NCBI GenBank assembly: GCA_025774805.1
Contig: JALGZR010000015.1
Span: 1 to 42,797 of the forward strand
DNA from: a bacterium
GTDB lineage: Bacteria > ARS69
Length of the DNA stretch: 42,797 bases
Direction of reading: 5' to 3'
Each line of letters starts with the position of its first letter. The stretch's first letter is position 1. Both the position numbers and the translations under genes were made by a program. The notes beneath the pieces are model-generated. The model worked only from the letters and a program-made list of their open reading frames with translations, made no database searches and was not told where the DNA came from. This document shows, one piece after another, positions 2,903 to 32,435 of the stretch.

Positions 2903-3502
2903 TCACATGGAGGTCGCGCCGGCGAATCGCTCGGCGACGTTTTCCCAGTTGACCACGTTCCACCACGCCTTGATGTAGGCCGGGCGCTTGTTCTGGTACT
3001 TGAGATAGTACGCGTGCTCCCAGACGTCGAGCATCAGCAGGGGCACCGAACCGTGCAGGCCCTGGTTCTGGTGGTTCATCGAGGCCAGGACGATGAGCTG
3101 ACCCGCCGACGAATCCCAGGCGAGGATTCCCCACCCGTTTCCCTCGACGGTCGCGGCGGCCGCGCTGAAATGGGCCTGGAACGCATCGAAGCTCCCGAAG
3201 TCCCTCTGGATCCGGGCCCCGAGGTCGCCCGCGGGAGTGCCGCCGCCGTTCGGGCCCATGTTCTCCCAGAAGATGCAGTGGTTCGCGTGTCCGGAGCCGT
3301 GAAAGGCCAGTGCGCGCTGGACGGCCTGGACCGCCGAGAAGTCGCCGGTCTCCCGCATCTTCGCCAGCTTCTCCTCCGCCCCGTTCAGCCCGTCGACATA
3401 GGCCTGGTGGTGGAGGTCGTGGTGGAGCTTCATCGTCTGCTCATCGATGTGGGGCTCCAGGGCGGCATAGTCGTACGCGAGGGGGGGCAAGACGTGCGGC
3501 AT
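2903..3502 (-). CDS. sodA: Superoxide dismutase, Fe/Mn family
   Basis: This enzyme disproportionates superoxide to oxygen and hydrogen peroxide. The protein is 199 residues from ATG 3502. An in-frame ATG at 3511 is unlikely because GGAGG lies directly against it, whereas it is 9 bases from 3502. The four metal ligands are present: H27 (KLHHDLHHQAYV), H75 (GHANHCIFW), D159 and H163 (DVWEHAYYL). Gly71 before HANH is the Mn-type choice. The second-sphere position in MNHQNQ, around residue 144, appears to be His, as in the mycobacterial enzyme, rather than Gln. Metal preference (Mn, Fe or either) therefore cannot be read off; the symbol is by family only. No signal peptide, so cytoplasmic. Located between a membrane TPR gene and algH on the same strand. 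Confidence 0.95.
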   Translation of the reverse strand: MPHVLPPLAYDYAALEPHIDEQTMKLHHDLHHQAYVDGLNGAEEKLAKMRETGDFSAVQAVQRALAFHGSGHANHCIFWENMGPNGGGTPAGDLGARIQRDFGSFDAFQAHFSAAAATVEGNGWGILAWDSSAGQLIVLASMNHQNQGLHGSVPLLMLDVWEHAYYLKYQNKRPAYIKAWWNVVNWENVAERFAGATSM

Positions 3503-3629
3503 GGGATCCATCCTCCAACCGGGATTCTGAAAGGGGTGGGTCGGGGCCTTCGACGGGCAAACCGTTCCGGTTCCTCGAAGGCCGATCTCCGACGGTGGAC
3601 GCAGACGATAGGGTCGTCCCCGGAAGGGG

Positions 3630-5703: not shown

Positions 5704-7878
5704 GTGAACGACCTCCCCACCCGCTTCCTCCGCGAGCTGATCGGGGTCTTCCTCGAGGCCTCTCCCTACATCCTCCTCGGTTTCACCGTCGCCGCCTGCA
5801 TTCAGGTGCTGCTTCCGGTCTCGTCCGTGCGTCGGCTCTTCGGCCGCGGGAGGGCGCGCTCGATCTTCGCGGCGTCGCTTCTCGGGATTCCGCTTCCGCT
5901 CTGCTCGTGCTCCGTGCTGCCGACCGCCCTCGCGCTCCGCCGGCGGGGGGCCGGACGGGGGGCGACCCTCTCGTTCCTGGTCTCCACGCCCGAAACCGGG
6001 ATCGACTCCATCGCCCTCACCTACGGGCTGATGGACCCGCTGATGGCGATCTACCGTCCGTTCGCCGCGCTGGCCTCCGCCCTGGCCGCCGGGTTCGCCG
6101 CCGAGGCGTGGGGGCAGGACGGGGCCGCCGAAGCCGCGGCGGAAGAGGGGGCGACCGACGCGGCGGAAACGCCCTCGCCGGAGCCGCATCCCGACGATCG
6201 ACTGGCGCTGGAAGAAGCGCGCCGTACCGCGGGGGAACACGCCCGGCCGATTCCCGCCCGCCTGCGGGAGGGGTTTCGGGGGGCGTTCGTCGAGATCTTC
6301 GACGAGACGTCCCACTGGATGCTCGCCGGTCTCGTGATCTCGGCCGTGATCTCCGTGCTCCTTCCCGCCGAGATCGTGACGCGCTACCTCTCGGCCGGCC
6401 CGGTGCCGCTCCTCCTCATGCTCGTCCTGGGCATTCCGCTCTACATCTGCGCCTCCGCCTCGACTCCGATCGCCGCCGCGCTCGTGCTGAAGGGCCTCTC
6501 CCCCGGGGCCGCGCTCGTCTTCCTCCTCGCGGGGCCGGCGACGAACATCGGATCCCTCGCGATCCTCGGACGGTTTCTGGGACGACGGGTAACGATCCTC
6601 TACCTTGCGGTGATCGCGATCATGAGCCTTGCGCTCGGAGCCCTGCTCGACGTGATCTATCCGTTGTTCTCCATCGATCCCCAGGGAGCGGTGGCCCGGG
6701 CCGGCGAGATTCCGACGTGGATCGCGGCTCCCGCGGCGGCAGTGTTCGCCGGGCTTCTCTTTCTCTCCTTCCGACGCAAGGAGGCTCCGAACGAGTTCCG
6801 AAAGCTCGGAGCCGCGATTCGATGGCTGCTGGGCTTCCGCATCACGGCCCGCAGTCTCGCATGGGTGGCCGGCGCGATCGTCGCCTTCTGGGCGATCACC
6901 CAGTTCTTCATTGTGGTGCCTCCGGGTCACCGGGGACTGATCAAGCGTTTCGGCGCCCCGCGGGGGGAGCCGATGGGAGAGGGGCTGCACGTGAAGTGGC
7001 CGCCGCCCATCGAGACGGGCGAAGTTCTACCCGTCGATGCCGTGCGGCGGATCGAGTTCGGCTTCCGCTCTCCCGGCCAGTCGACGGGTCCGACCGATCG
7101 GGGACCTCTCGACGCGGGAACCTCGGCCCGGCAACTCGAGGAGGAGGCGATCTATCTGACCGGCGACGAGAACCTCGTCGACGCGAAGTCGGTGTTGCAG
7201 TACCGGGTCGTCGATCCCGTGCGCTTCCTCTACGGATTCGAGAACCCCGAAGACGTGCTCAAGGCCCAGACGACCGCGGAGCTCCTGGACGTCCTGGCCG
7301 CGATCCGGATCGATCGGGTCTACACGGACGACCGCCCGATCGTGGAGGATCGCGTGCGCGAGGGGCTCGCGCGGCGCGCGGCGGAGGTGGACCTGGGGGT
7401 GGAGGTCCTCCACTTCGGAATCCGGGAGGTCCACGCTCCCCCCGAGGTCCACGCGGCCTTCCGGGATGTCGCGAGCGCCCAGGAGGACAAGGAGACCGCC
7501 GTCAACGTGGCGCTGCGCTATCTGGACGAGACCGTGAACCTCGCCCGGGGACAGGCGGCCGGCGACCTCGAGGAGGCGCGGAGTTTCGCGACGCGCGAGC
7601 TGGCGCGGGCGAAGGGCGGATCGGTCAGCCTGCTCATGCGAGGAGAGGCCTACCGGGAGAGACCGGTGGGCACCTATACGCGACTCTATCTCGAGACGGT
7701 GGAGGAGGTCCTCGCCTCGGCTCGGAAGATCATCCGGCCCGGATGGGCGGGATCGGGCGCCGTCGATCTCTGGATCTCCTCCGGGGCGGGGAAGGCCGTC
7801 GCCGTGGAGGACGTGCTGCGCGGCAGTGACGTCCGGCGCGACGAGGAACCCGAAAGCGAGGGAGTGATGGGGCGATGA
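5704..7878 (+). CDS. SO_0444/ArsP_1-type metal permease fused to an HflK-type SPFH domain
   Basis: The 724-residue protein joins two families. Residues 1-~365 are an SO_0444 (Cu/Zn efflux) / ArsP_1-type permease: IPLPLCSCSVLPTAL with C67 and C69, STPETGIDSIALTYGLMDP, a second repeat with IPLYICASASTPIAAAL (C249), and LSPGAALVFLLAGPATNIGS. Residues ~385-690 are an SPFH protein of HflK type: a membrane segment (WVAGAIVAFWAITQFFIVV), PPGHRGLIKRFGAP, YLTGDENLVDAKSVLQYRVVDP and the HflK-like tail APPEVHAAFRDVASAQEDKE. The cytoplasmic linker between permease halves (about 138-185) is Glu/Ala-rich and lacks the His/Cys cluster usually seen there. Start GTG 5704 with GAGG; the stop overlaps the next ATG (ATGA at 7875). 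The fusion implies that the permease works inside an HflK/HflC-like membrane assembly. Direction of transport and metal are inferred from the family. Confidence 0.9.
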   Translation: MNDLPTRFLRELIGVFLEASPYILLGFTVAACIQVLLPVSSVRRLFGRGRARSIFAASLLGIPLPLCSCSVLPTALALRRRGAGRGATLSFLVSTPETGIDSIALTYGLMDPLMAIYRPFAALASALAAGFAAEAWGQDGAAEAAAEEGATDAAETPSPEPHPDDRLALEEARRTAGEHARPIPARLREGFRGAFVEIFDETSHWMLAGLVISAVISVLLPAEIVTRYLSAGPVPLLLMLVLGIPLYICASASTPIAAALVLKGLSPGAALVFLLAGPATNIGSLAILGRFLGRRVTILYLAVIAIMSLALGALLDVIYPLFSIDPQGAVARAGEIPTWIAAPAAAVFAGLLFLSFRRKEAPNEFRKLGAAIRWLLGFRITARSLAWVAGAIVAFWAITQFFIVVPPGHRGLIKRFGAPRGEPMGEGLHVKWPPPIETGEVLPVDAVRRIEFGFRSPGQSTGPTDRGPLDAGTSARQLEEEAIYLTGDENLVDAKSVLQYRVVDPVRFLYGFENPEDVLKAQTTAELLDVLAAIRIDRVYTDDRPIVEDRVREGLARRAAEVDLGVEVLHFGIREVHAPPEVHAAFRDVASAQEDKETAVNVALRYLDETVNLARGQAAGDLEEARSFATRELARAKGGSVSLLMRGEAYRERPVGTYTRLYLETVEEVLASARKIIRPGWAGSGAVDLWISSGAGKAVAVEDVLRGSDVRRDEEPESEGVMGR

Positions 7879-8780
7879 AGACCCTGCGAAACGCCGTGCT
7901 GGCGTTGATCGTCGTCGGGCTGCTGCTCGGGACGTGTTTCTTCCAGGTCGACGTCACCGAGTACGCGGTCGTGACCCAATTCGGAAACCCCGTGAAGGTC
8001 GTGACCGAGCCCGGTCTGCAGACGAAGATCCCTCTCATCCAGCAGGTCCGGCGATTCGACGCCCGCCTTCAGGTCTTGGAGCCCCAGCAGGCCGAGTACC
8101 TCACGAACGACAAGAAGAACGTCATCGTGAACTACTACTCGGTCTGGCGGGTCGACGACCCGCTCCAGTTCTTCCGGGCTCTGCCCTCCGACGCGGCGGC
8201 GGCGAGTCAGCTCACCGACGTCCTCTCCTCGGAGCTCGGCGCCGCCCTCGCCGCGGTTCCGTTCGACGCGCTCATCAATCACGAGAATCCCGAGAATCGA
8301 CAGCTCGAAACGCTCGTGACGACGATCGAGACGGCCGTGCGCGGCGTCGCGGAAGAGAAATACGGAATCGAGGTCGTCGACTTCGACGTGCGGCGGCTCT
8401 CCTTTCCGGATCAAAACCGGCGAAGCGTGTTCGAGCGCATGCGCGCCGAGCGCGAGCGAATCGCCCGGCGCTTCCGGTCCGAGGGCGAGGAGGAGGCGCG
8501 CAAGGTGCGCGCCCGGGCCGATCGGGAGGAGAGCCAGATTCTGTCCGAGGCCTACCGGGAGGCCGAGATCCTCCGCGGCGAGGGAGAGGCGGAGGCCACC
8601 CGGATCTTCGGCGAGGCGATCGCCCAGGATCCCGAGTTCTACGAGTTCACCCGGACCCTCGAGGCCTACCGCAAGTTCCTCGATGAAAACACGACGCTGA
8701 TTCTTCCCTCCGACTCGGAGCTGATGCGGCTTCTGACCGACGGCCTGAGCGAGGCGAAGCACGGAACCGAGAGACCGTGA
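7875..8780 (+). CDS. HflC-like SPFH membrane protein
   Basis: The 301-residue protein has an N-terminal membrane anchor (residues 7-25), then the SPFH domain beginning VTEYAVVTQFGNPVKVVTEPGL and ending with the HflC-type signature RRSVFERMRAERERIARRFRSEGEEEA. A long charged alpha-helical stretch (about 190-250, rich in Arg/Glu/Ala) is predicted to form a coiled coil. In Escherichia coli, HflC pairs with HflK to form a cage around the FtsH protease. No ftsH is visible here, and both HflK-type partners are encoded by the flanking overlapping genes. The start overlaps the permease-SPFH stop by four bases, so translation is likely coupled. The gene symbol is left empty because this cassette is probably not the classical hflC. 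Confidence 0.9.
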   Translation: MKTLRNAVLALIVVGLLLGTCFFQVDVTEYAVVTQFGNPVKVVTEPGLQTKIPLIQQVRRFDARLQVLEPQQAEYLTNDKKNVIVNYYSVWRVDDPLQFFRALPSDAAAASQLTDVLSSELGAALAAVPFDALINHENPENRQLETLVTTIETAVRGVAEEKYGIEVVDFDVRRLSFPDQNRRSVFERMRAERERIARRFRSEGEEEARKVRARADREESQILSEAYREAEILRGEGEAEATRIFGEAIAQDPEFYEFTRTLEAYRKFLDENTTLILPSDSELMRLLTDGLSEAKHGTERP

Positions 8781-9700
8781 TGACGGGGCGCCTCCTCCGG
8801 ATCGGACTTCCCGCGCTGCTGGTCGCCGTCTGGTTCGCGACGGGCTTCTACACCGTCGAGCCCGAGGAGCTTGCGGTCGTCAAGCGATTCGGGGCCGTGA
8901 CCGAGCGGGCGGTTCCCTCCGGGTTCCACTGGCGTCTTCCCGTGCCCATCGAGAGCCACGAGAAGTTCCGGACCACCACCGTGTACAAGATGGGGGTCGG
9001 CATGATCACCCGGGACTTCCTCCGGGGGATCCCCTCTCCCGAGGAGCTGTCCCTCTGGCTGACCGGCGACACGAACATCCTGTCGGTGAAGATCATGATC
9101 CAGTACACGGTGGTGGATCTGGCGCACTACCTCTACCGGCTGACGGGCGCGCAGTTCCTGATGGCGAAGATCGCCGAGGCGGCGCTCACGGACATCCTGG
9201 GGGGCATGAACGTGGACGACGCCCTCACCGTGAACCGGCCGCTCATCGCCAGCGAGATCCGCAGGAGAACCCAGGCCCGACTCGACGAGCTCGACACGGG
9301 CATCTCCATCGTCTCCGTGAACCTCCTCTCGGTCGACCCTCCGAGCCAGGTCATCGACGTCTTCCGGGACGTCTCCAACGCCGCCGCCGACCGGGAACGG
9401 ATCATCAACGAGGCGAACGGCTACGCGAACTCGGTCATCCCCCGGGCCCGGGGTGAGGCCTCCTGGATCGTGGAGCGAGGGCAGGCGGAGCGGGACGCCC
9501 GAATCGCCGAGGCCAAGGGGGAGTCGGCCCGCTTCCTCTCCGTTCTGGGGGAGTACCGAAAGAACCCCGACGCGACCCGCCGCCGGCTCTACCTGGAGAC
9601 GCTGGAAACGGTGCTCCCCCGCGTGGACCGCTACATCATCGACGTCGACGGGGAGGGCGAGCGCTTCGACCTCAAGATCCTCGATCTCGACGGGCAATGA
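8777..9700 (+). CDS. HflK-like SPFH membrane protein
   Basis: The 307-residue protein is the second HflK-type member of the cassette. It has one N-terminal membrane segment (LRIGLPALLVAVWFATGFY), the SPFH core (VEPEELAVVKRFGAV, GFHWRLPVPIE, LTGDTNILSVKIMIQYTVVD) and the HflK hallmark VFRDVSNAAADRERIINEANGYANSVIPRARGEA. The start is GTG 8777 (overlapping the hflC-like stop as GTGA) or ATG 8780; both are in frame. The stop overlaps the ATG of the ZIP gene at 9697. With the SPFH half of the first gene and the HflC-like protein, the operon encodes three SPFH subunits in a fixed K-C-K order. Confidence 0.9.
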   Translation: MMTGRLLRIGLPALLVAVWFATGFYTVEPEELAVVKRFGAVTERAVPSGFHWRLPVPIESHEKFRTTTVYKMGVGMITRDFLRGIPSPEELSLWLTGDTNILSVKIMIQYTVVDLAHYLYRLTGAQFLMAKIAEAALTDILGGMNVDDALTVNRPLIASEIRRRTQARLDELDTGISIVSVNLLSVDPPSQVIDVFRDVSNAAADRERIINEANGYANSVIPRARGEASWIVERGQAERDARIAEAKGESARFLSVLGEYRKNPDATRRRLYLETLETVLPRVDRYIIDVDGEGERFDLKILDLDGQ

Positions 9701-10554
9701 TGGACGAATCGCTGGTTCCGGAGATCGCACGTCTCGCGCTCGCGGCGGGGTCGGTCGTGGCGCTGACCCTCATCGGAGGACTGCTGCCGCTCGCACGCGA
9801 GTGGAATCGCGGAACGATTCGAGTGCTGCTCGCCTTCGGTATCGGGGTCCTCCTCGGGGCAGCGTTCCTGCACATGCTTCCGGAGGCGATCACCGTCCTC
9901 GGATCCGGAGTCGGGGCTCCCGTGCTCGTGGGCTTCCTGCTCATCTACGTCCTCGAGCGGTTCGTGATGATCCACGCCTGCGAGGAGGAGGGCTGCGGCT
10001 TTCACGAGCTCGGGCTCGCCGCCTTCGTCGGGATCACGGTGCACTCCCTCATCGACGGGTTCGCGCTCGGGGCGGGCCTGACGATTCCCGAGATCTCGGT
10101 GCCGGTCACGGCGGCGATCATCCTCCACAAGCTTCCGGCCGCGCTCTCCTTGACCGGCATCCTGTTGCACTGCGAGTACCCGCGGAAGCGGATCGTCCTC
10201 ATGACGGTGATGTTCTCGATTTCGACCCCGTTCGGGGCCGCGCTCGCGTACGGCGCGCTGCGGGAGATGACCGGAACCACGCTGCTTCACTACGCAATCG
10301 CGTTCTCCGCCGGGACCTTTCTCGCGATCGCGACCGCCGATCTCCTCCCTCAGATCCACTCGGCTCCGGAGGGGCGCCTGCGCAATCTGTTCGCGCTGTT
10401 CGCCGGTATCCTGGTCATGGGGCTCACCGGCCCGGGGGGACCGGTGGGCGGTCACGACCACGACCACGCCTCTCGAACCGTGCCCGAGCCTCCGATGGCG
10501 AGTCCGGTTCGAGTGCCGGGCGGGTCCGCCGAGCGGAAGACCGTCCCCTCCTGA
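9697..10554 (+). CDS. ZIP-family metal transporter with altered TM5 motif
   Basis: The 285-residue protein has about eight hydrophobic segments typical of ZIP (SLC39) transporters, which move Zn and related divalent metals toward the cytoplasm. TM4 carries H116-S-L-I-D120-G and TM5 carries H144-K-L-P-A148. In canonical ZIPs the TM5 motif is HxxPE, and the Glu is a metal ligand; here it is Ala148. A His-rich loop-like tail (GGHDHDHAS, near residue 255) follows the last membrane segment, and ACEEEGCGFHE (~91-101) offers more Cys/His/Glu ligands. Start ATG 9697 (or 9700) overlaps the stop of the HflK-like gene. It ends the cassette. Transport activity or specificity may differ from normal ZIPs. 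Confidence 0.88.
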   Translation: MMDESLVPEIARLALAAGSVVALTLIGGLLPLAREWNRGTIRVLLAFGIGVLLGAAFLHMLPEAITVLGSGVGAPVLVGFLLIYVLERFVMIHACEEEGCGFHELGLAAFVGITVHSLIDGFALGAGLTIPEISVPVTAAIILHKLPAALSLTGILLHCEYPRKRIVLMTVMFSISTPFGAALAYGALREMTGTTLLHYAIAFSAGTFLAIATADLLPQIHSAPEGRLRNLFALFAGILVMGLTGPGGPVGGHDHDHASRTVPEPPMASPVRVPGGSAERKTVPS

Positions 10555-10597
10555 GGCCTTCGAGACCCCAGACTGCATTTCGCCCCCGAGCCCGTGG

Positions 10598-10603
10598 TAT
10601 TCT
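10598..10603 (+). promoter_or_regulatory. Candidate -10 element of the M1 peptidase gene
   Basis: TATTCT lies 35 bases upstream of ATG 10638 in otherwise GC-rich DNA. No clear -35 is visible. It fits a TANNCT pattern seen before several other genes in the window. Confidence 0.3.
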
Positions 10604-10637
10604 GGTCGAAACCGACCGTCCTACCGGAGGCCTCGCA

Positions 10638-12710
10638 ATGCACATCCTTTCCGCTGTCCGCACTTACCTTCTGCTTCTCCTGACCGCCGGTCTGCTGCTC
10701 CCGGTCGCGGCCGCCGCCGTGGAGCTTCCCGGAGACCCGTACCACCCTCGCGACAGGCTGATCGGGGACGAGGCGCTTCTCGACCCCTGGGATCCCCTCG
10801 CGAACTGGCGCATGCGGAGCGAGCCGCGCCACGCGCTTCCCGGACCGTTCGAGAACTGTCCCCACGACTACGACGTGCTCCACTACGAGCTGAACTTCTC
10901 CTCGTTCGACCACCTGAGCAACTATCTGGACGGGCATACCGTGATCGACTTCGTCTCGAGGGTCGACGCGCTCGGGTCGATCGATCTCGATCTGACGTCT
11001 CAGCTCACGGTCTCGTCGATCGTTCGGGATGGCACGGACTCCCTGTCGTACTCCCAGGTCGGAGACGTCCTGAACGTGCAGTTCGCGGCGCCGCCCGACA
11101 GCGGCGACACGGTCTCGATCGACGTGGCCTACGAGGGAGTGCCGTGGAACGAGGGAGCGGGCGGCTTCGGAGGGTTCTGGTTCCGCGGCTTCCCGAGCAC
11201 CGCCTTCTCGATGGGGATCGGCCTCGCCGCCGAGCCGCCGGCCGTCGGGCACGCCTGGTTCCCCTGCTGGGACTGGCCCTGTGACAAGGCCACGGTCGAC
11301 CTGAACGTCGAGGTGCCCCTGGACAAGATGGCGGTGGCGAACGGCGAGTTGCTCGGCGTCGACTCGACGGCGACCGACCACACCTGGCGCTGGTCCCACG
11401 ACTACCCGATCGCGACCTACCTGATCGCGGTCGCCGTCGCGCCCTACAAGGTGCTTTCCGACACCGTCGTCACCGATCCCCGCATCAAGGTCTATCATCA
11501 CCCGGGATACAAGAAGAAGGCGACGGTCAGCTTCCAGAACGTCGACGTGATGATGGAGGCATTCGAGACGCGCTTCGGCACCTATCCCTTCGAGAAGTTC
11601 GCGTTCATGGTCACGAACATCGGGGACATGGAGCACCAGACCTGCGTGAGCCACGCGGCCGGCCTCGTGGACAGCACGAACACGTATGATCCGATTCTCG
11701 CCCACGAGCTGATGCACATGTGGTTCGGGGACTGCGTGACCTACGGTTCCTGGGCGGACATCTGGCTCTCCGAGGGGTTCGGGACGTACGGGCCGGCCCT
11801 CTTCCGGGAGCACCAGGGGGGTATGAGCGCCTACCACGACCACGTGACGACCTCGATCCTCAACCGCATCATCACCTCGGGCAAGACCGACGGCATCTAC
11901 GACCCGCCCGACCGGTGGGGGGTCATCAACTACGAGAAGGGCGCCTCCCTCCTTCACATGCTCCGCGGGGTGCTCGATGACGACGTCACGTTCTTCCAGG
12001 CGTTGAACGACTTCTTCACCGCCCACGCCTACGGGAACGTCGTGACCGCGGACTTCACCGCCGACGTGAACGCCTCCACCGGACAGAACCTGAACTGGTT
12101 CTTCGATCCCTGGCTCTACGGAGAGGGGCATCCGGTGTACGAGTACGGGTGGTCTCCCGTCCCTCTGGGCGGGGGGAGCTGGCGCGTCGACGTCGGCATC
12201 CGGCAGGTCCAGACGACGGCCACGATCTTCGACATGCCGGTGGACTTCCGGGTCCAGACCGCCTCGGGTGACTTCGACTTCTCCGAGCGGATCGACTCGG
12301 CCGCCCAGACCGTCTCGTTCGTCGTCCCCGCCGAGCCCACCGGCCTCCTCGTCGATCCGGACGACTGGATCCTGGACGTCCAGCAGGTGTCTCCCACCTC
12401 CGCCGACTTCGGGCCCGAGGTCGCCGCGGCCCAGGCGCTCTCCCTCCTTCCGGCGCGTCCCAATCCGTTCCGGACCCGGACGGAGATCCCCTTCTACCTC
12501 CCTCGGGGGGGACGGACCACGGTCACGATCCACGACGCGGCGGGTCGGACCGTGCGATCTTTCGGGACCCGAGAGGAGATGCCCGGGGCCCGGAGCCTCC
12601 ACTGGGATCGCCGGGACGGCGACGGCGGGAAGGTGGCGTCCGGCGTGTACTTCGTCCGCCTCGAGGGAGTCGACGGAGTCCGCAGCGGCCGGGTGGTGGT
12701 CATCGACTGA
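10638..12710 (+). CDS. Secreted M1-family zinc metallopeptidase with C-terminal FlgD-like module
   Basis: The 690-residue protein starts at ATG 10638, seven bases after GGAGG. A signal peptide (LLLLLTAGLLLPVAAAA) leads into an aminopeptidase-N-like beta domain (~50-240). The gluzincin core follows: the substrate-binding GDMEH variant of GAMEN at 329-333, the zinc site H356-E-L-M-H360 with E379 in WLSEGF, and DPPDRWGVINYEKGASLLHML. The canonical four-helix C-domain is short; instead there is an Ig-like segment (about 490-590) and a FlgD-Ig module (~605-690) beginning with an RPNPFR turn and ending VASGVYFVRLEG plus a short tail. M1 enzymes remove N-terminal residues from peptides. The C-terminal module is shared with other exported proteins here and probably serves export or anchoring. 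Known enzyme family; peptide preference unknown. Confidence 0.93.
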   Translation: MHILSAVRTYLLLLLTAGLLLPVAAAAVELPGDPYHPRDRLIGDEALLDPWDPLANWRMRSEPRHALPGPFENCPHDYDVLHYELNFSSFDHLSNYLDGHTVIDFVSRVDALGSIDLDLTSQLTVSSIVRDGTDSLSYSQVGDVLNVQFAAPPDSGDTVSIDVAYEGVPWNEGAGGFGGFWFRGFPSTAFSMGIGLAAEPPAVGHAWFPCWDWPCDKATVDLNVEVPLDKMAVANGELLGVDSTATDHTWRWSHDYPIATYLIAVAVAPYKVLSDTVVTDPRIKVYHHPGYKKKATVSFQNVDVMMEAFETRFGTYPFEKFAFMVTNIGDMEHQTCVSHAAGLVDSTNTYDPILAHELMHMWFGDCVTYGSWADIWLSEGFGTYGPALFREHQGGMSAYHDHVTTSILNRIITSGKTDGIYDPPDRWGVINYEKGASLLHMLRGVLDDDVTFFQALNDFFTAHAYGNVVTADFTADVNASTGQNLNWFFDPWLYGEGHPVYEYGWSPVPLGGGSWRVDVGIRQVQTTATIFDMPVDFRVQTASGDFDFSERIDSAAQTVSFVVPAEPTGLLVDPDDWILDVQQVSPTSADFGPEVAAAQALSLLPARPNPFRTRTEIPFYLPRGGRTTVTIHDAAGRTVRSFGTREEMPGARSLHWDRRDGDGGKVASGVYFVRLEGVDGVRSGRVVVID

Positions 12711-28919: not shown

Positions 28920-31900
28920 GTGACGCACTCCGAAGCCACGTCCCACCCGCCCGTTCCCGACCTGGACGGGCCCGCGCCGGCTCGCCGGACCGAGGCGGAG
29001 CTGCGGGATTTTCTGGCGGAGCGGGTCCTGGTGCTCGACGGGGCGACGGGAACCGGTTTTCAGGCGCGCGATCTCGGCCCCGACGACTTCGGAGGACCCG
29101 ATCTCGAGGGATGCAACGAGCACCTCGTGTTCACCCGCCCCGACGTCGTGGTCGATCTCCACTCGTCCTATCTCGCCGCCGGCGCCGACATGGTCCAGAC
29201 GAACACGTTCGGGGGAACGGGAATCGTGCTCGCCGAGTACGGTCTCGCCGATCGCGTCCTCGAGATCAACCGGCGCGCGGCGGACCTCGCGAAGCGGACG
29301 GCGGCGGCCTTCGCGACGAAGCAACGGCCGCGCTTCGTGGCGGGGTCGATCGGCCCGACTACGAAGGCGATCTCCGTGACCGGCGGCATCACGTTCGATG
29401 CGCTCGTGACCGCGTTTCGGGATCAGGCCGCCGGGCTCATCGAGGGGGGCGTCGACGTCCTCTTGATCGAGACGCAGCAGGACACCCGCAACGCGAAGGC
29501 GGCGCTCATCGGCGCGGACGACGCGATGGCGATCACGGGGATCCGGGTGCCCGTCATGCTGTCGGGCACGATCGAGAATACGGGCACCATGCTCGGCGGA
29601 CAGAGCATCGAGGCGTTCTGGACGAGCGTCTCGCACTTCCCGCTCCTCTCGGTCGGTCTCAACTGCGCGACCGGACCCGCGTTCATGACGGACCACCTGC
29701 GAACTCTCTCCGCCCTCGCGACTACCCATGTCTCCTGCGCGCCCAACGCCGGCCTTCCCGACGAGGAGGGCCGCTATCACGAGACCCCCGAGAGCATGGG
29801 GAAGGTGATGGCGCTCTTCCTGGACGAGCGATGGGTCAACGTCATCGGCGGATGCTGCGGCACGACGCCGGACCACGTGCGGGTTTTCGCCCGGTTGGCC
29901 CAGGGCGCACGACCCCGGATCCCCGCACCGGTCTCGGGAACGCGTGTGAGCGGGATCGACTACCTCGAGGTGACCGAGGACATCCGTCCCGTGCTCGTCG
30001 GCGAGAGAACGAACCTGATCGGCTCGCGGAAGTTCCGGCGCCTCATCGAAGAGGAGAAGTACGAGGAGGCGGCCGAGATCGGACGGCGTCAGGTGCGAGG
30101 GGGCGCTCAGGTCCTCGATATCTGCCTGCAGGATCCGGATCGGGACGAGCTGGCCGACGTCCGGGGCTTCTACGAACGGATCGTGCGCATGGTCCGGACT
30201 CCTCTCATGATCGACTCCACGAACGCGGAGGCGATCGAGCGGGCCCTGACCTACTGTCAGGGGAAGGTGATCATCAACTCGGTAAACCTGGAGGAGGGAG
30301 AGAACCGGCTCGCCGCCGTCTGTCCCCTTGCGCGGAAGTACGGCGCGGCTCTCGTCGTCGGCACGATCGACGAGGATCCGGTACAGGGGATGGCGGTCAC
30401 GCGGGAGCGGAAGCTGTCGATCGCGCGGCGAAGCTACGATCTGCTCGTGAACCGATACGGGATCGCTCCCGGGGACATCCTCTGGGACCCCCTCGTCTTT
30501 CCGGCGGGGACCGGAGATCCCCAGTACGTCGGCGCCGCGGAGGAGACGATCGCCGCGATCCCCCTCCTCCGGTCGGAGTTTCCGGGAACGAGGACGATCC
30601 TCGGGATCTCGAACGTCAGCTTCGGTCTTCCGACGGCGGGGCGGGAGATCCTGAATTCCGTCTTTCTGCACGATGCGACGAAAGCCGGTCTCGACTTCGC
30701 CATCGTGAACGCCCAACGGCTCGAGCGTCACGGCAGCATCCCGCCGGAGGAGATCGAGCTCGCCGAGGACGTTCTGTTCGCCCGGGGCGAGGACCCGGTC
30801 GGCGCGTTCGTTGCGCACTTCCGGAAGGGCCGGACCCGGGTCCGTCCCGAGGACGCCCGGCCGCGGTCTCTCGACGAGCGTCTGGCGGCCTGCATCGTCG
30901 AGGGGACGAAAGACGGGCTCGTGGCGGATCTGGACCGGAAGCTCGCGGAGGGAGTGCCCCCCCTCGACATCATCAACGGTCCGCTCATGGAGGGCATGGC
31001 CGAGGTCGGTCGACTCTTCAACGACAACCGGTTGATCGTGGCGGAGGTGCTCCAGAGCGCGGAGGCGATGAAGGCGGCCGTGTCTCACCTCGAGCCTCAC
31101 CTGGAGAAGACGGAGACGGCGTCCCGCGGAAAGGTGGTCCTGGCGACGGTCAAGGGGGACGTTCACGACATCGGGAAGAACCTGGTCGAGATCGTGTTCA
31201 CGAACAACGGCTACAACGTCATCGATCTCGGAATCCGCGTCCCCCCCGAGACGCTCATCGAGGCCTGTCGTGAGCACTCGCCGGACATCGTGGGACTGTC
31301 CGGACTGCTCGTGAAGAGCGCGCACATGATGGTCTCCACGGCCGAGGACATGACGCGAGCGGGCACGACCCCACCTCTTCTGGTCGGCGGCGCCGCCCTG
31401 TCCGAGAGATTCGCGCTCACGAAGATCGATCCGTCCTACGCCGGTCCCGTGTTCCACGCGAACGACGCGATGGCCGGCCTCTCGCTCGCGGATCGGATCC
31501 TCGGGGCCGGCGGAGGCCTGGATATGCTGAGGAGGGAGATGGACGCGAGGCGCCGGCGCCTGGGGACGGCGACGCGACGCGGAACGGAACCGGTCCACGA
31601 CGCGGGGTCGACGCGGAGCTCCCGTATCTCCGTGCTGCCCGCCGCTCCCGCCCCGCCCGACCTCGATCGCCATCAGGAAGAGGGGCGTCTCATTGAGATC
31701 TGGCCGTGGATCAACCCGCAGATGCTCTACGGCCGCCACCTCGGATTGAAGGGGCGCATCGACAAGCTTCTGGCCGCGGGCGACGAGAAGGCGCGGGGTC
31801 TCAAGAGGCGGGTCGAGATGCTGCAGGGGCTCGCGGAGAACGGGCGCATGCGGGCGCGGGCGGTATGGCAGTGGTATCGGGCCGAGTCGGAGGGAAACAC

Positions 31901-32435
31901 GATCCGCGTGCTCGGTCCCGACGGAAGTCCCCTCGAGGAGCTCACGTTCCGGCGCCAGCCGCGTCCCGACGGGCTGTGCATCGCCGACTGGGTCAAGCCC
32001 GCCGGAGCAGGGAACGACTGGCTGGGGATGTTCGTGACCACGGTCGGCGAAGGGGTCCGGGAGTGGGCCGCGGAGCTGAAGCAGTCGGGAGAGTATCTCG
32101 ACAGTCACGCCGTTCAGGCCCTGGCTCTGGAATCCGCGGAAGGCTACGCGGAATCCCTGCACGCGCGCATGCGCCGGGCCTGGAATCTCGACGACGAACC
32201 GGGGGCGGGCCCGAACGATCAATCCCCGAGCCGTTACCGGGGCATTCGGGTCTCCTTCGGGTATCCCGCTTGCCCCGATCTCGAGGACCAGGCGAAGCTC
32301 TGGCGGCTGCTGCGTCCCGAGGAGATCGGGGTCGAGCTCACCGAGGAGTTCATGATGAGTCCCGAGGCGTCGGTGTCGGCGATCGTCTTCCACCACCCGC
32401 AGGCGGCCTACTTCGGGGTGGGGGACACCCCCTGA
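28920..32435 (+). CDS. metH: Cobalamin-dependent methionine synthase
   Basis: MetH transfers methyl from methyltetrahydrofolate to homocysteine via cobalamin. The 1171-residue protein starts at GTG 28920, six bases after GGGGAG. All four modules are present: homocysteine-binding barrel (~35-330; zinc ligands C249 in NCATGP and C312/C313 in GGCCGT), pterin-binding barrel (~350-620; VLVGERTNLIGSRKF, MIDSTNAE, NSVNLEEG), cobalamin-binding module (~640-880; H749 in GDVHDIGKN is the lower Co ligand) and the SAM-binding reactivation domain (~930-1165; RVSFGYPACPD). A low-complexity linker (~880-930) precedes the activation domain. Close to the Escherichia coli enzyme in length. No cobalamin or SAM riboswitch was seen upstream. 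Confidence 0.97.
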   Translation: MTHSEATSHPPVPDLDGPAPARRTEAELRDFLAERVLVLDGATGTGFQARDLGPDDFGGPDLEGCNEHLVFTRPDVVVDLHSSYLAAGADMVQTNTFGGTGIVLAEYGLADRVLEINRRAADLAKRTAAAFATKQRPRFVAGSIGPTTKAISVTGGITFDALVTAFRDQAAGLIEGGVDVLLIETQQDTRNAKAALIGADDAMAITGIRVPVMLSGTIENTGTMLGGQSIEAFWTSVSHFPLLSVGLNCATGPAFMTDHLRTLSALATTHVSCAPNAGLPDEEGRYHETPESMGKVMALFLDERWVNVIGGCCGTTPDHVRVFARLAQGARPRIPAPVSGTRVSGIDYLEVTEDIRPVLVGERTNLIGSRKFRRLIEEEKYEEAAEIGRRQVRGGAQVLDICLQDPDRDELADVRGFYERIVRMVRTPLMIDSTNAEAIERALTYCQGKVIINSVNLEEGENRLAAVCPLARKYGAALVVGTIDEDPVQGMAVTRERKLSIARRSYDLLVNRYGIAPGDILWDPLVFPAGTGDPQYVGAAEETIAAIPLLRSEFPGTRTILGISNVSFGLPTAGREILNSVFLHDATKAGLDFAIVNAQRLERHGSIPPEEIELAEDVLFARGEDPVGAFVAHFRKGRTRVRPEDARPRSLDERLAACIVEGTKDGLVADLDRKLAEGVPPLDIINGPLMEGMAEVGRLFNDNRLIVAEVLQSAEAMKAAVSHLEPHLEKTETASRGKVVLATVKGDVHDIGKNLVEIVFTNNGYNVIDLGIRVPPETLIEACREHSPDIVGLSGLLVKSAHMMVSTAEDMTRAGTTPPLLVGGAALSERFALTKIDPSYAGPVFHANDAMAGLSLADRILGAGGGLDMLRREMDARRRRLGTATRRGTEPVHDAGSTRSSRISVLPAAPAPPDLDRHQEEGRLIEIWPWINPQMLYGRHLGLKGRIDKLLAAGDEKARGLKRRVEMLQGLAENGRMRARAVWQWYRAESEGNTIRVLGPDGSPLEELTFRRQPRPDGLCIADWVKPAGAGNDWLGMFVTTVGEGVREWAAELKQSGEYLDSHAVQALALESAEGYAESLHARMRRAWNLDDEPGAGPNDQSPSRYRGIRVSFGYPACPDLEDQAKLWRLLRPEEIGVELTEEFMMSPEASVSAIVFHHPQAAYFGVGDTP

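Follow-up and report, generated by a model that had tools for sequence, protein, structure and literature searches.

The locus lies in a 42,797-nucleotide stretch of bacterial DNA (contig JALGZR010000015.1 of assembly GCA_025774805.1, lineage ARS69), which was analysed at its full length and is called the window here. Four frames on its forward strand overlap stepwise at positions 5704-7878, 7875-8780, 8777-9700 and 9697-10554. The first-pass annotation had put these overlaps at 1-4 bases; the frames do overlap, but by exactly 4 bases at all three joints. The first gene (5704-7878) encodes, in a single open frame, a 724-aa protein in which a complete SO_0444-type permease is joined to a likewise complete HflK-type SPFH protein. 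It is followed by an HflC-type SPFH protein of 301 aa (7875-8780; TIGR01932, 214.3 bits against a cut-off of 134.4), a second HflK-type SPFH protein of 307 aa, termed HflK2 (8777-9700; TIGR01933, 210.8 bits against 159.4), and a ZIP-family metal transporter of 285 aa (9697-10554; PF02535, E 3e-37, 128.8 bits against a gathering cut-off of 35.1), which carries the His-containing TM4 and TM5 motifs HSLIDGFALG and HKLPAALSL. The family profiles thereby bear out the earlier reading of a permease fused to a complete HflK-type SPFH domain and followed by HflC, HflK and ZIP proteins. Around the cassette, an M1-type zinc peptidase with a FlgD-like C-terminal domain lies directly 3' of the ZIP gene (10593-12710, forward strand), and an Fe/Mn superoxide dismutase is encoded on the opposite strand (2903-3511). 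Further downstream, the window holds a complete B12-dependent methionine synthase (28920-32435, forward strand).

The permease domain occupies residues 14-352 of the fusion (5743-6759). The model of SO_0444 Cu/Zn efflux transporters, NF033936, matches residues 13-352 with 366 bits (cut-off 300) over positions 2-347 of its 351, and PF03773 matches residues 14-315; the SO_0444 equivalog cut-off was exceeded by all seven fused proteins that were scored. A profile of the efflux protein SaoE also matches the permease, with a score below its cut-off. Both motifs named in the first-pass annotation are present, CSCSV in the first permease half (residues 67-71; 5902-5916) and LAGPATNIGS in the second (residues 275-284; 6526-6555), and their columns are mostly invariant in an alignment of 14 fused proteins from nine phyla (C67, S68, C69 and V71; G277, P278, A279, T280 and N281). 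In the other half of the protein, PF01145 places the SPFH/Band 7 domain at residues 404-603 (6913-7512). The HflK model TIGR01933 matches residues 403-677 with 155.1 bits, just below its equivalog cut-off of 159.4, and among six other fused proteins four score above this cut-off (163-204 bits) and two below. The predicted structure of residues 379-724 is of moderate quality (pLDDT 64), and its best solved match is HflK 7vhq of the Escherichia coli cage (Foldseek E 4.5e-17); the architecture is that of HflK in 7vhq and 9cz2, with a transmembrane helix, an SPFH domain and a long helix. An AlphaFold2 model of the whole fusion, built from a three-row alignment, was uninformative (pLDDT 38) and was set aside.

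In E. coli HflK, the SPFH part is periplasmic (PMC12048511). The two halves of the fusion are connected by a linker (residues 355-386; 6766-6861), predicted to be cytoplasmic from hydropathy and charge, with 8 Lys and Arg against 2 Asp and Glu, and the HflK transmembrane helix follows at residues 387-405 (6862-6918; hydropathy). Because this strongly positive linker precedes the helix, the fused HflK part should be located outside the cytoplasm, in the periplasm, as in E. coli.

The single-frame fusion of permease and HflK was found in 33 genomes of nine phyla, nearly always with HflC and HflK genes behind it. In the window's phylum it is present in 5/5 genomes searched, with about 60% identity and one copy cut by a contig end. 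Among 386 genomes sampled across the domain, many other families had SO_0444 genes in frames 650-940 aa long, and the loci behind these frames showed the same fusion with HflC and HflK immediately 3'. Searches with a profile of the fusion, run within each phylum, recovered full-length fusions in 2/5, 2/4, 5/7, 3/7, 2/2, 5/18 and 5/16 genomes of seven small phyla and in 5/95 genomes of a larger one, together with two fragmentary copies in the latter. Since none of these searches returned members of another group, we count nine phyla, the window's own included. As a control, 28 loci with stand-alone SO_0444 genes had no HflK or HflC within 1.5 kb. Plasmids were searched with the whole fusion as well, and no SO_0444-type copy turned up.

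These results remove the three doubts raised in the first-pass annotation, namely that the fusion might occur in this genome alone, that a frameshift or assembly join might lie near position 6850, and that the neighbours elsewhere might be unrelated. In favour of an artefact, the source genomes are mostly metagenome-assembled (M3-22_Bin_282 and HKST-UBA01 among them) and mostly in many contigs, and one relative, G507, is frameshifted right at the linker. However, 33 genomes from nine phyla share this open frame, so the junction is no assembly error, and the chance that it is an artefact is negligible. G507 was also the sole candidate for a split version, with permease and HflK adjacent and unfused, and it was rejected as a frameshift in the linker. 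Upstream of the fusion, two phyla have an additional HflC-like gene and a gene of the acetamidase/formamidase family (loci L065, L069, L072 and L125-L127), the latter recognised in L065 and L069.

In a tree of 122 SPFH proteins from cassettes and canonical loci, the fused HflK parts (HflK1) formed one group, the branch itself being unsupported, and the cassette HflC and HflK2 proteins lay apart from canonical HflK and HflC. The same sub-clades recurred in HflK1, HflC and HflK2, and the cassette therefore travels as a unit. A canonical HflK was kept elsewhere in 9/14 genomes searched, as an hflK-hflC pair; the window's genome has such a canonical pair on another contig (G000:C79), and the cassette SPFH proteins do not group with the canonical pair. 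Judged from the tree, the cassette SPFH genes are a dedicated set, distinct from canonical hflK-hflC. The fused permease halves fell into four groups in their own tree; as a single clade was not rejected (p-AU 0.244), we do not claim repeated fusion as shown.

The loop between the two permease halves (6112-6273, from the alignment and loop counts) is rich in His, Cys and Asp in many fused proteins, with up to 18 His, and has few His in the window's own protein (three, with no Cys). A ZIP gene adjoins the fusion in 4/9 phyla and is absent in the other 5/9, so it is a frequent partner and was ruled out as a core member. In three genomes of one genus (G506, G511 and G512), the permease has just a short cytoplasmic tail beyond its last helix, and its gene overlaps that for ZIP; the same permease-ZIP pair was found in G508, and in G512 a CopA-like P1B ATPase comes after ZIP. 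In sister species, the HflK half, HflC, HflK2 and two further genes separate the permease from ZIP, and either gain or loss may underlie the two orders. Between HflK2 and ZIP, a gene for a periplasmic binding protein (Peripla_BP_6; L074:8081-9235) and a gene for a 165-aa uncharacterised protein (L074:9254-9748) are conserved in one genus. In several f112 species the permease is retained but SPFH genes are missing, and genome G367 has a further permease-HflK fusion gene, its second, with neither HflC nor HflK2 nearby (L066:6747-8918, G367:C10); the scaffold is thus dispensable for the permease.

The interpretation in the first-pass annotation is thus supported in part. It proposed that an exporter and a ZIP protein are made together; the putative exporter and ZIP are neighbours in four of the nine phyla and may act together there, but ZIP is no fixed part of the cassette, and the permease-ZIP pair exists without SPFH genes in one genus. 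The accompanying proposal of metal handling gains from the permease family, from the His/Cys/Asp-rich loops of many members and from the ZIP or P1B-ATPase neighbours. By analogy, zinc or copper handling is likely, because the nearest studied relative of the cassette is the Zur-controlled HflK/HflC-hmtA operon of Pseudomonas aeruginosa. No conserved regulatory palindrome was found upstream of the cassette in four relatives.

The same plan was found with other transporters. The second cassette of genome G121 (L184:7424-9811, G121:C137) joins an EamA-family transporter to HflK, with HflC and HflK behind it, and its HflK2 groups with cassette HflK2 in the SPFH tree. Another version lies on a conjugative plasmid of Aquibium oceanicum (Pseudomonadota; NZ_CP018172.1), where one protein (L196:5311-6858) combines a CDF cation-efflux domain at residues 8-198 (PF01545) with HflK at residues 243-414. 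Downstream come genes for HflC, HflK, a peptidyl-prolyl isomerase, a P1B ATPase bearing metal-binding domains, PCuAC and SCO. CopC and CopD genes lie near this cassette, and the setting is a copper/metal island of the plasmid. The Aquibium HflC falls among cassette HflC proteins with strong support, and its HflK proteins lie near cassette groups, without support. SO_0444, EamA and CDF are three unrelated transporter families carried on HflK with the same gene order, and with Pseudomonadota counted the design occurs in at least ten phyla. This recurrence of three unrelated kinds of transporter over at least ten phyla suggests that in some bacteria transporters are incorporated directly in a membrane cage, and since an EamA-HflK cassette exists, the plan is not restricted to metal transporters.

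Several described systems share parts of this plan. The E. coli HflK-HflC modulators of FtsH (PDB 7vhp, 7wi3 and 9cz1) belong to the same SPFH family, are encoded by adjacent, paired hflK and hflC genes, and have the N-terminal helix followed by an SPFH domain and a long helix; however, they are without a transporter domain and comprise two genes, whereas the cassette has three. Like the cassette, the P. aeruginosa operon PA2439-PA2438-PA2437-PA2436-hmtA-PA2434 groups three SPFH genes, HflK and HflC among them, with a metal transporter, in a gene order resembling that of the Aquibium CDF-HflK cassette. Its genes PA2439 (HflK), PA2438 (HflC) and PA2437 (SPFH) sit in the cluster of the Zn/Cu importer HmtA (PA2435) and are 9- to 14-fold up in a znuA mutant (PMC4542158), the PA2437-PA2439 proteins rise under Zn depletion (PMC11761036), and the PA2439 promoter is bound by Zur (PMC8531726). 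A 2026 survey described, in strain PA14, three SPFH genes in one operon with a patchy distribution and without a clear function (PMC13086221); this operon (PaFlo5-7) is probably PA2439-PA2437. Compared by description, the P. aeruginosa operon differs from the cassette in that the transporter is a P1B importer encoded by a separate gene, and no fusion is reported.

The whole permease half of the fusion fits the model of the SO_0444-family Cu/Zn efflux transporters and keeps their motifs, but the described members stand alone or are joined to HMA or DsbD-like parts, without an SPFH part; SO_0444 itself is needed under Zn and Cu stress (PMC3219624). Human stomatin offers a structural likeness, as its SPFH domes were observed to enclose a patch of membrane holding AQP1 or UT-B (PMC12407830); these cargoes are not metal transporters and are recruited non-covalently. 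In SPFH-NfeD operons (QmcA-YbbJ and others), an SPFH gene likewise has a dedicated membrane partner gene, but the partner is NfeD, which is neither a transporter nor fused to HflK, and the word "permease" is absent from the text of a survey of 12 subfamilies (PMC2636767). The first-pass annotation knew of no described system with the composition of the cassette. A search of freely accessible literature found no paper on SPFH-permease or SPFH-CDF fusions, but the PA2439-PA2434 (hmtA) operon has the same plan of HflK/HflC plus a metal transporter. As far as the searched literature shows, HflK/C scaffolds and SO_0444 transporters are each known, and their covalent union and its extension to several transporter families are undescribed.

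Considering all the above results, we lean towards a transporter-SPFH cassette, in which a Zn/Cu-type permease forms one chain with HflK, is produced together with its own HflC and HflK2, and is fixed in the scaffold. In this model, the fused HflK part in the periplasm, HflC and HflK2 would co-assemble into an HflK/C-like ring or dome, which, in line with the stomatin-transporter structures, would fix the permease within the area of membrane that the scaffold encloses. Metal would move into or out of a periplasmic space confined in this way, where partners such as ZIP or P1B ATPases, if present, could exchange it. The scaffold may concentrate, stabilise or gate the transporter, and the covalent fusion would make recruitment of the transporter to the scaffold obligatory.

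The SPFH part could instead act as a proteolysis adaptor that brings FtsH to the transporter, whose lifetime would be set by metal status and whose transport would need no cage. HflK and HflC are FtsH partners in E. coli, their native form is an open shell through which membrane substrates can reach FtsH (PMC12048511), and FtsH is a zinc protease; yet ftsH was not recognised among the identified cassette neighbours. Moreover, the Arg in the helix reported to touch FtsH, which is invariant in canonical HflK, occurs in 23/33 fused HflK1 and just 1/30 cassette HflK2 proteins and is replaced by Leu in the window's fusion, although its loss is a weak hint on FtsH, because this residue is R193 by our count and Arg191 as published. 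We regard such an adaptor as unlikely, while giving it some weight.

A simpler role would be that of a tether which clusters or stabilises the permease in a microdomain, with no closed chamber or gating. The permease does exist with no SPFH part in many bacteria, and within one genus in sister species as well, but in nine phyla the fusion is accompanied by two additional dedicated SPFH genes, which a tether would not require; this role is therefore quite improbable. Another question is the substrate, as PF03773 includes members with other known or proposed substrates, for example arsenical or organometal compounds. The match of the SaoE profile, albeit below its cut-off, and the absence of ZIP in 5/9 phyla would fit a permease that carries something other than Zn or Cu, with the ZIP neighbour incidental; against the SO_0444 cut-off, passed by 7/7 fused proteins, and the recurring ZIP, P1B-ATPase and CDF contexts, we find this very improbable.

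Beyond the cassette with the Zn/Cu-type permease, we tentatively put forward a modular class of SPFH machines, possible rather than probable, in which HflK would covalently carry an exchangeable transporter (SO_0444, CDF or EamA) as the floor of an HflK/C-type dome, with transport into or out of a closed periplasmic chamber. If true, this class would be a bacterial transport compartment with a protein wall. The role of bacterial SPFH scaffolds is a long-standing question, and their partners have been found by biochemistry and vary with the method. A covalent fusion in nine phyla, with two more transporter families, names an SPFH partner unambiguously together with its scaffold genes, and opens the idea of SPFH domes as housings for transporters to direct tests in bacteria. 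The cassette also suggests what the HflK/HflC genes of the P. aeruginosa zinc regulon, so far unexplained, might do.

Stand-alone members of the SO_0444 family carry fusions of other kinds. Judged from the sequences, these are a DsbD-like part or heavy-metal-associated domains, and the DsbD-like membrane part is N-terminal to the permease in two loci (L062:8415-10130 and L070:8242-10011).
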